This document shows, one piece after another, positions 7,189 through 10,180 of a stretch of DNA of 45,785 nucleotides (the first letter of the stretch is position 1; each line of letters starts with the position of its first letter). The notes below the pieces were generated by a model. It was not told the DNA's origin. It did no database searches and was given only the letters and a program-made list of their open reading frames with translations. A program made the translations under genes and the position numbers. The stretch is from Phycisphaerae bacterium (lineage in GTDB: Bacteria; Planctomycetota; Phycisphaerae; Phycisphaerales; SM1A02): assembly GCA_018701395.1 (NCBI GenBank), contig JABIWU010000012.1, positions 1 through 45,785 on the forward strand. Direction: 5' to 3'.

Positions 7189-8532
7189 TTACTTTTTACT
7201 TGATAAACGTGCTTTTGCGAGGAAAATGAACCCAATTCCTCCGATTGCTGAAAGCGATGCGCCAGCATAAAAGACTACTGGTCCTGCTTGGAAACCACTT
7301 GCTATCAAATATGAATAAATCGCCATACCAAACGCGGGCGCGAGGAGCCCCCGAATTCCGGTAAGGGTGACATGCAACCCCATGTACCTGCCCGATTGTT
7401 CAACAGGTGCATAATCTTGATGCCCAAGATTCCACGCGAGGACACCACCTCCAAAACCAATTCCGCGAATAGCAGCGCCAGCCCAAAGTCCCCAGACAGA
7501 ATGTGTGGCTATAGAAATGCCAATACAAAGAGATGACACAACAAAAAACCAACTATGAATGGAGCGAAATGATAGCACATGCATTTTATCTAGGAGTTTC
7601 GCCCAGAACAGCGTGCTAATCGGAATCATTAAAATTGGAATTGTAGAAACAATCAAAATTTCACCAAGGTATCCAAGGTCAAATTGATCACTGAGAATAA
7701 TGACAAGCGGTGCGGTGAGCATTAAATTGCCGACGCCAAACACAAATTGGCATGCCATATATCTCGCAAAGGGCTTGTCTTCGAAAAGCAAGCCAAAGGT
7801 TTTCCATGGCAGAAATGAAACGAGGTGTGGCGAATTTCGTTCGTCAGTTAATAAATCCTTGTGTCCTCTGACATGTATTTTGCTGTAAACCCAAGCACCT
7901 AAAACACCAAAACTTGCTGCAACTGGATACACCCATCTAATTGCATTTTCATTTAAATCCATCGCCTCGCCAACACCAAAACTAACAGCAGCGAGAACGA
8001 GTGCTTGCACGGTTGCAATTCTTCCAGCGACGAATGCGCGATTTGTGCGGGGGTAGTTTGCTTGCCAAACGGTTGTCCGCAAAGTGACAATTCCTGTATA
8101 GCAAACACGCGTTCCGATTACACAGAATAAAAGAAGCCCGAGGCCAAAACCAGTTTGCGGTACGAATGCAACCGCACCAACAAGAATTACACATGCAATT
8201 TTTAATGCCGTAATAAAACGAATCTTGTGGCGTCCATGGCTAAATGCCGCCCACAAAAAACTAGAAATACTCGCAAACCCTTGGGCTGCTGTAAGTGATG
8301 CAACAGACCAATCGAGAGTTGCTTGTTCGACAACACCCTCAAACATTCGTTTGGTGAGCACACCGACAACGCCACCTTCAATCGCGCCCATCATCATTGG
8401 CAGAAATGCCCATGCAATTAATTCGCGAGCATGTTGGGTTGTTGAGGATGTATTCAAAAAAAGTCCTTGCAGTACATGGGAGAAATGGTATTGTACGATT
8501 GACTTAGAAATAGGTTGCCGTGCGATGTACAC
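7189..8532 (-). CDS. MFS family transporter
   Basis: The 447-residue protein has about twelve membrane segments and the layout of the major facilitator superfamily. Small Gly/Ala-rich helices include GAAIRGIGFGGGVLAWNLGHQDYA (read in pieces at about residues 355-380), and there is a central cytoplasmic loop with HVRGHKDLLTDERN near residue 225. It starts with GTG at 8532, since no upstream ATG is in frame and the next ATG falls inside a helix. The gene lies 216 bases behind the anti-sigma gene, and that gap holds a structured RNA candidate with its own promoter. The transporter may therefore be under separate RNA-level control. The substrate cannot be inferred. Efflux or solute uptake are equally possible. 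Confidence 0.85.
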   Translation of the reverse strand: MYIARQPISKSIVQYHFSHVLQGLFLNTSSTTQHARELIAWAFLPMMMGAIEGGVVGVLTKRMFEGVVEQATLDWSVASLTAAQGFASISSFLWAAFSHGRHKIRFITALKIACVILVGAVAFVPQTGFGLGLLLFCVIGTRVCYTGIVTLRTTVWQANYPRTNRAFVAGRIATVQALVLAAVSFGVGEAMDLNENAIRWVYPVAASFGVLGAWVYSKIHVRGHKDLLTDERNSPHLVSFLPWKTFGLLFEDKPFARYMACQFVFGVGNLMLTAPLVIILSDQFDLGYLGEILIVSTIPILMIPISTLFWAKLLDKMHVLSFRSIHSWFFVVSSLCIGISIATHSVWGLWAGAAIRGIGFGGGVLAWNLGHQDYAPVEQSGRYMGLHVTLTGIRGLLAPAFGMAIYSYLIASGFQAGPVVFYAGASLSAIGGIGFIFLAKARLSSKK

Positions 8533-8583
8533 GCAGTATGTATGTGCTCGATCCTATCGAACCCTCAGGGATCGTTAAAGTTG

Positions 8584-8720
8584 CATCGATAGTCATGCCT
8601 CACAGCTTTGCTGGAGTGGAAGTCTTGGAATGTCGACACACGAACCCACCTTCTGGTACTGGGTTTGAGCTCACCTACTGTGTGTGCGTCGCACGGCAAT
8701 CTCTTTTGCGATGTTTCGGC
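8584..8720 (-). ncRNA. Candidate structured RNA: small RNA or 5' leader of the MFS gene
   Basis: On the minus strand this stretch can fold as a three-way junction. A closing stem pairs CATCG (8713-8709) with CGATG (8588-8584) and TGCC (8698-8695) with GGCA (8599-8596). Arm 2 pairs CG-c-ACACAC (8688-8680) with GTGTGTCG (8641-8634) and ends in a hairpin AACCC..ACC-AGAA-GGT-GGGTT (8665-8643). Arm 3 is CTC-CAGC-AAA-GCTG-t-GAG near 8617-8600. A good promoter ends about seven bases before the first paired base. I compared it by eye with SRP RNA, tmRNA, RNase P RNA, 6S RNA and the common riboswitches and found none of their conserved sequence blocks. The family is unknown. Confidence 0.4.
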
Positions 8721-8722
8721 GA

Positions 8723-8752
8723 AGTATAGAAATTTGTTGGTTTGGAAGTTAA
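8723..8752 (-). promoter_or_regulatory. Candidate sigma-70 promoter for the structured RNA/MFS transcript
   Basis: Read on the minus strand, TTAACT (8752-8747) and TATACT (8728-8723) are separated by 18 bases. The second matches TATAAT in five of six positions, the first matches TTGACA in four. The expected start near 8716 falls just before the closing stem of the structured RNA. The -35 box overlaps the stop codon of the anti-sigma gene. Confidence 0.45.
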
Positions 8753-9543
8753 ACCCAGCGTTTGCCGGTTTTTGCATCGACTGCAGTAACTGTCATTCCC
8801 TTAACAAGGGATTGGTCAATATTGAAACCATGTCCAAGGATTGGACCGTCTGCTGTTATTCGAGCGAGTTCAATAATAGCACCACTTAGAGTTGTGCCTT
8901 GAATGATTATTTCTTCGCCTTTTTCGAGGTCGATGCCAAGAACAAAGCCATTTCCAAACCGTTCATTGAGCGCAATTCGAAGGTAGCCAATTGAATGGCT
9001 ACTCTCTCGCTCGAGGCGGGTAACTTGGCAGTATGGGTTTCCAATAAATTCGCTGAATTTGCGACCAACCATATCGGCTAGTTCAGTATTAGTTGCGCTG
9101 TTTAGAGCAATTTGCGCATTGCGATTTGCTTTTGTTTGAGCATCAAGAGAAATAACTGCGAGCACAACTGCAACACCGAATAATACGACTGCTGCTGTTC
9201 TCCAAAAAGTTACAGATCGCGATGGACCCAGTTGAGCCTGTGCAGCACTTGCTCGAGCACCAATAAGTGCCAGAGGTGCCAGTCGTTGGGCTTCTTGGTC
9301 TGCAGTTTCAGCAATAGATTGAAGAACTTTTTTGCGTAATTCTGCAGGAGGATTTTCCGCGGGTAGAAGTGAATCATCTAGCGCGAACTTTTCTTGTATT
9401 CGGACGATTTCTTCTTGAATGGATGCTGGTGCATCGTGGAAAGAACGAGTGAACAGATCGACTTCGATTTGTTCAAGCAAACCGTGTGCTTCAAGAACCG
9501 CGAGTTCAAGGAGTTGCTTATAGTTGTGTATTTCGTTCGTCAT
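8749..9543 (-). CDS. Anti-sigma factor, RskA-like
   Basis: This 264-residue protein has the RskA layout. A cytoplasmic helical N-terminus begins with a LLELAVLEAHGLLEQIEVDLF segment (about residues 11-31) matching the sigma-binding region of this family. A linker of helices follows, then one membrane segment (AAVVLFGVAVVLAVISL, about 136-152). The extracytoplasmic domain ends in TVTAVDAKTGKRWV. RskA-type proteins hold their ECF sigma factor at the membrane until a signal triggers proteolysis. It lies 35 bases downstream of the ECF sigma gene on the same strand, the standard cognate arrangement. I see no HxxxCxxC zinc motif, also normal for the RskA group. The signal it senses is unknown. Confidence 0.85.
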   Translation of the reverse strand: MTNEIHNYKQLLELAVLEAHGLLEQIEVDLFTRSFHDAPASIQEEIVRIQEKFALDDSLLPAENPPAELRKKVLQSIAETADQEAQRLAPLALIGARASAAQAQLGPSRSVTFWRTAAVVLFGVAVVLAVISLDAQTKANRNAQIALNSATNTELADMVGRKFSEFIGNPYCQVTRLERESSHSIGYLRIALNERFGNGFVLGIDLEKGEEIIIQGTTLSGAIIELARITADGPILGHGFNIDQSLVKGMTVTAVDAKTGKRWV

Positions 9544-9578: not shown

Positions 9579-10145
9579 TTAAAGTTGGGCAGATATTTTT
9601 TTACTCTTATGCTCCCTTAGGCGGAGTAATCCCCGGCTCAATGCCGATTTCACCGTCCCAAGCGGCGCGTCTAACTGTTTGCTCACTTCGCGTAAAGTGA
9701 ACCCATGAAAATACGCCCTTTCGATGACTGTTCGTTGCATTTCAGGAAGTGCCTGTAATGCTTGCCAGAGTAACGCGTTGCGTTCATGTAGTAATGTATT
9801 CGATGGCAGGGGCGTATCGGTTGCAGAAACCTCATGGTGTTCTGTAAATTCTTGTTGCTTAGGGCGTACCATTTTTCGCCTAATTCGGTCAATTAAGTGA
9901 CGTCTGGTAATAAGCATCACCCAAGTCACCAATTTAGCTTTTCTGGGGTCAAATCTGTCCGCAGTCTTCCAAAGGCGCACAAACACCTCTTGTACAGCAT
10001 CTTCTGCTTCTGCATTATTTGATAAAAACTGTAAAGATAATTTAAAAACAAGCGCGCAATAGCGATCATAGAGTTCTGCAACAGCATCCTCTTCGCCGAG
10101 GGCAACTCGACGCATCAATCTATAGTCTGGCTCATTGTTGGGCAA
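9579..10145 (-). CDS. RNA polymerase ECF sigma factor (SigK-like)
   Basis: The protein has region 2 (ELYDRYCALVFKLSLQFLSN, then AEDAVQEVFVRLWK and a WVMLITRRHLIDRIRR promoter-melting helix) and region 4 (LPEMQRTVIERAYFHGFTLREVSKQL, then LGTVKSALSRGLLRLRE, the -35 recognition helix-turn-helix). I place the start at a TTG (10145) because GGAGA lies six bases upstream, giving 188 residues. A TTG at 10175 would add ten but lacks such a site. The gene heads a unit with the RskA-like anti-sigma factor. A TAACAAAATCC repeat lies just upstream and could mark its own regulated promoter. The ECF assignment is certain; the regulon is unknown. Confidence 0.93.
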   Translation of the reverse strand: MPNNEPDYRLMRRVALGEEDAVAELYDRYCALVFKLSLQFLSNNAEAEDAVQEVFVRLWKTADRFDPRKAKLVTWVMLITRRHLIDRIRRKMVRPKQQEFTEHHEVSATDTPLPSNTLLHERNALLWQALQALPEMQRTVIERAYFHGFTLREVSKQLDAPLGTVKSALSRGLLRLREHKSKKISAQL

Positions 10146-10180
10146 TAGTATTCTCCATGACCTCAAAAAGGTCAAAACGG

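Follow-up and report, generated by a model that had tools for sequence, protein, structure and literature searches.

The segment 8501-8705 on the plus strand of the window, i.e. the whole stretch of 45,785 nucleotides that was analysed, is almost certainly the gene for a divergent 6S RNA. The element is a divergent yet ordinary 6S RNA, located on the strand opposite to the fold of the original prediction, which had placed a structured RNA with its own promoter in the gap upstream of the MFS transporter gene. The presence of a structured RNA in this gap was borne out, whereas the strand, the stems and the promoter proposed for it were not. The RNA lies on the plus strand and matches RF00013, the 6S RNA model of Rfam. 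The homology to 6S RNA is based on sequence and covariation, and the strand, the single locus and the conservation throughout the order were likewise observed.

These results assign a 6S RNA to Phycisphaerales genomes, presumably of marine origin, in which Rfam at its curated cut-off finds none, and a covariance model now detects 6S RNA widely in the order. Their main value concerns annotation: at the curated cut-off the 6S RNA escapes detection throughout the genus and in the majority of the relatives that were searched, with RF00013 exceeding the cut-off in 7 of 101. None of the matches listed in a literature search describes a 6S RNA from Phycisphaerales; an earlier report, from a 2014 screen, is possible.

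The features of the locus are listed below. R1 denotes a covariance model built from the genus alone (13 genomes); its match to the window holds by construction, the window sequence being part of R1. The start of the 6S RNA was placed 7 nt past the candidate -10 element.

7189-8457, minus strand: MFS transporter (PF07690, 49.4 bits), divergent from the 6S gene
8467-8494, plus strand: candidate 6S promoter, TTGCAG (8467-8472), 16 nt, extended -10 TGG-TATTGT (8486-8494)
8501-8705, plus strand: 6S RNA gene, predicted transcript (RF00013 match 8514-8701, R1 match 8498-8719; both ends approximate)
8512-8524, plus strand: closing stem, 5′ side, pairing with 8690-8702 (two-sided changes in 8 of 11 pairs within the genus)
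8528-8556, plus strand: inner closing arm, 5′ side, with its partner at 8660-8686
8557-8567, plus strand: central bubble, 5′ side, UCGAACCCUCA, which the consensus of the 13 sequences leaves unpaired
8568-8647, plus strand: apical arm, consisting of the GGGATCGT / ACGAACCC stem and a variable tip (helices 5-8 of the genus alignment)
8648-8659, plus strand: central bubble, 3′ side, with a short ACC/GGT hairpin (genus alignment)
8690-8702, plus strand: closing stem, 3′ side, followed by the T-rich tail TCTCTTTT
8749-9543, minus strand: putative anti-sigma gene (open reading frame), convergent with the 6S gene

Scanned permissively, positions 8400-8800 gave RF00013 as the sole Rfam match (8514-8701, plus strand, 31.9 bits, E 6.8e-5). 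This match is significant and full-length, covering model positions 1-187, and its alignment includes the GGGA and ACCCACCU blocks at the bubble, contradicting the earlier statement that the gap contains no conserved block of 6S RNA. However, the score of 31.9 bits falls short of the curated cut-off of 46.4, and the 6S RNA is thus overlooked by a default scan; Rfam at gathering level gave no match in the whole window. The best RF00013 score among the genus members was 43.4 bits. When 14 stretches from relatives were subjected to the permissive scan, three matched 6S RNA (E ≤ 1) at the expected place, namely L042 with 43.4 bits, L048 with 31.2 bits, and L053, which belongs to another genus, with 23.8 bits and E 0.44. 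The remaining 11 of the 14 gave no 6S match at E ≤ 1.

Whole-genome searches with RF00013 likewise yielded no match in any of the 13 genus genomes at E up to 10, the window's own genome included. Since the same search also misses the known locus, this blank says little about a second 6S gene in the window's genome. R1 recovered only the 8501-8705 locus and its own reverse complement there (stricter filters, 23 candidates scored), and on this ground an additional 6S gene in another part of the genome was rejected.

On the plus strand, the segment 8499-8719 folds into a structure whose stability far exceeds that of the shuffles (z -6.64). In each of the 12 other genomes of the same genus that were searched, the DNA can be recognised, and single-sequence folding with 100 shuffles each gave plus-strand z values below -3 in 12 of the 13 genus sequences. 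The exception, G011, folds poorly on the plus strand (z -1.02) and better on the minus strand (-2.10), and in G006 the minus strand is slightly better (z -6.32 versus -5.79). Alignment of the 13 sequences yielded a consensus of 56 pairs that form a long, irregular hairpin interrupted by a central bubble. In total, 93.0% of its 728 cells are paired, compared with 87.0% after shuffling and 32-40% after sliding; two-sided changes occur in 22 of the 56 pairs, and the covariation score is 0.326 versus 0.210. Within the genus, further pair types were no more numerous than in the shuffles (214/500). The helices flanking the bubble are nearly invariant in the genus and therefore say little at this level; their two-sided changes appear only across the order.

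For the order, 70 R1 matches were aligned by fitting them to the model structure. In this alignment, 91.5% of 3244 cells are paired, compared with 74.0% after shuffling, and two-sided changes were found in 43 of the 56 pairs. Moreover, the structure that RNAalifold itself predicts from the order alignment comprises 28 pairs, 18 of them with two-sided changes. The helices 7-10 of the apical arm are paired in 92.6-100% of cells across the 70 sequences; the ACC/GGT hairpin on the 3′ side of the bubble (helix 11) is invariant in the genus and paired in 64.1% of cells across the order. Taken together, covariation supports the closing arm, the central bubble and the apical arm that characterise the 6S family. 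The strand was read from the wobble pairs: G-U outnumbers A-C by 101 to 10 cells in the genus and by 362 to 55 in the order, an asymmetry which indicates that the plus strand is the RNA strand. The genus consensus is paired in 93.0% of cells on the plus strand versus 80.5% on the minus strand.

At E ≤ 0.1, R1 matched 86 of 101 genomes; leaving aside the 13 from which it was built, it matched 73 of the 88 outside the genus. It also matched all 30 fetched RF00013 loci (E up to 0.043) at the same place and on the same strand, and 7 of these exceed the Rfam cut-off, so that R1 links the window by a chain of homology to over-cut-off members in related genomes. One genome, G095, is represented among these 30 loci, yet R1 did not find it when whole genomes were searched, where the filters are stricter. 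Among five weaker RF00013 matches (E 0.99 to 9.2), the one in G027 coincides by its coordinates with an R1 match and the other four do not.

A second model, R2, was built from the 70 R1 matches and, in a screen of 393 genomes of the phylum, detected 59. Many of these had themselves contributed to R2; 54 of the 59 belong to the order and five to family f9 of the same class. RF00013 matched 182 of the 393 at E up to 0.01, with 90 over the cut-off. The eight strongest RF00013 loci of this phylum screen were matched by R1 in no case and by R2 in four. In family f2 of the order, R2 matched 12 genomes and gave no match in at least 18; in the latter, the 6S RNA has either been lost or diverged more strongly. 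R2 likewise failed to match at least two members of the family to which the window belongs, G039 and G053. As a side observation, RF00013 matched genome G306 twice, each time with a score under the cut-off (C1:274203-274382 and C12:1007728-1007907), and the two might represent a 6S pair.

The structured RNA in the gap probably has its own promoter. The extended -10 element, TGGTATTGT, is exactly conserved in eight of the 13 genus members and TATTGT is present in ten, and the candidate 6S promoter is absent from the matches of a stricter consensus scan. The minus-strand promoter TTAACT-18-TATACT of the original prediction does exist (8752-8723), but it does not rise above chance, since 7 such matches occur in 3.5 kb, compared with an expectation of 6.3. 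At the other end of the 6S gene, the pattern scan of the region revealed no clear terminator; a terminator-like pattern at 8678-8696 on the plus strand is at chance level (3 found versus 4.0 expected in the region).

The MFS gene probably starts with the TTG at 8457 and not with the GTG at 8532, from which the transporter had earlier been taken to begin. The TTG is preceded by AAGGA at 8468-8464, and the GTG is located 75 bases upstream of the TTG, inside the 6S gene. An in-frame counterpart of the GTG is present in four of the 13 genus members (the window, L092, L088 and L089), and six have a stop between the two positions, less than 75 bases upstream. With the TTG start, the intergenic gap measures 291 bases instead of 216. 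The -35 box of the candidate 6S promoter overlaps the ribosome-binding site of the MFS gene, and TATTGTAC read in the reverse direction gives TACAAT, a possible -10 element of that gene. According to a broader reading, the Phycisphaerales harbour an order-wide, sequence-distinct branch of 6S RNA that is mostly missed by Rfam and, in the genus, 6S and MFS are coupled through the shared TATTGTAC. This combination is unlikely. Its coupling part concerns one short element that would act as -10 both ways in most members of a genus with small genomes, and a coupling of 6S transcription with MFS expression is a conjecture drawn from sequence.

As is known of the family, in part from PMC8876501 and PMC12005410, 6S RNA imitates an open promoter and occupies the sigma holoenzyme, and it is released when the polymerase uses the bubble as template for a short product RNA. 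By analogy, ordinary 6S sequestration of RNA polymerase is the most likely function here. The RNA would be transcribed from its own promoter beside the MFS gene, heading away from it, and would form two long arms flanking a central bubble that resembles an open promoter. If it behaves like the known family, it would bind the holoenzyme of the primary sigma factor, its accumulation would reduce transcription from many promoters, and it would be freed once the polymerase has copied a short product RNA off the bubble. It resembles 6S/SsrS RNA (RF00013) in its full-length alignment, the long irregular hairpin, the central bubble, the length of ~190-200 nt and the single locus, whereas it differs in scoring under the cut-off and in its neighbours, the MFS and putative anti-sigma genes. 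In E. coli, ssrS adjoins a gene for a folate enzyme; such a gene was not among the six window proteins scanned against Pfam.

An alternative would be a 6S-like RNA with a changed partner, binding core polymerase and not the holoenzyme, like the actinobacterial Ms1. The score below the Rfam cut-off would fit this idea, and Ms1, according to PMC9130861, has a 6S-like fold and is structurally related to 6S RNA, yet core-bound. However, the alignment to RF00013 extends to the sequence blocks at the bubble, the 7 of 101 relatives that pass the 6S cut-off do so at loci also matched by R1, and, unlike Ms1, the window has 6S RNA as its sole Rfam match, which makes such a change of partner very unlikely.

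The genomic context does not fit an MFS leader. In 50 of the 70 loci, including all 13 of the genus, the 6S RNA is transcribed away from the MFS gene. In two loci (L118 and L131), both genes share a strand and 6S precedes MFS, as if it were inverted, and in 18 no MFS gene was found within the examined stretch, some of these stretches stopping at contig ends. The distance between 6S and MFS is 41-60 bases in ten of the 13 genus members and 495-849 in three; outside the genus, it amounts to 493-914 bases in 32 of 37 divergent loci. This orientation, together with the long gaps outside the genus, argues against a leader of the MFS gene. An S1-domain gene follows the 6S gene in 40 of the 70 loci. 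In the window, the putative anti-sigma gene comes after the gene for a sigma-70 family protein (9579-10175), and its product has no Pfam match at E 0.001.

On the minus strand, the 133-nt fold originally proposed has a z of only -0.66, with 52 of 200 shuffles equally or more stable. The stems named for it are complementary in sequence but do not exceed chance. In the genus alignment, 33 of 65 cells of the closing stem (8713-8709/8588-8584) are conserved, and one of the 13 sequences retains this stem in full; for the CAGC/GCTG arm, the corresponding values are 24 of 29 cells and five of 13 sequences. The stem 8574-8569/8554-8549 is intact in 12 of the 13, where its bases show little variation, but across the order no more than 15 of 70 sequences have it complete, and it was also discarded as an alternative hairpin on the 5′ side of the bubble. 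The minimum-energy fold of the same stretch keeps 342 of 497 cells (69%). Among the checks that the original prediction itself had suggested, the comparison with relatives revealed no conservation of the closing stem, and the covariance search, run permissively, led to a known family, RF00013, on the plus strand.

The 299-nt gap on the minus strand (8450-8748; z -2.43) folds mainly as a single long hairpin, the reverse complement of the plus-strand one, and the minus-strand stability of 8499-8719 (z -4.18) is to be expected for the same reason. A new riboswitch or other cis-acting leader on the minus strand that governs the MFS transporter is therefore extremely improbable: although the named pairs exist in the window and both minus-strand segments have negative z values, the family match is to 6S RNA, the G-U/A-C asymmetry favours the plus strand, the RNA leads away from MFS in most loci or lies far from it, and a structure conserved on the mRNA strand upstream of the MFS gene was not found.

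Beside the 6S gene, four loci from other genera (L153, L147, L145 and L141) carry a short open reading frame with a lipoprotein-like start on the opposite strand, directly upstream of the 6S RNA, as judged by eye from the first 60 residues in 18 chosen loci. The gap of 41-60 bases in ten of the 13 genus members leaves no space for such a reading frame. L104 and L102 perhaps carry the same one.
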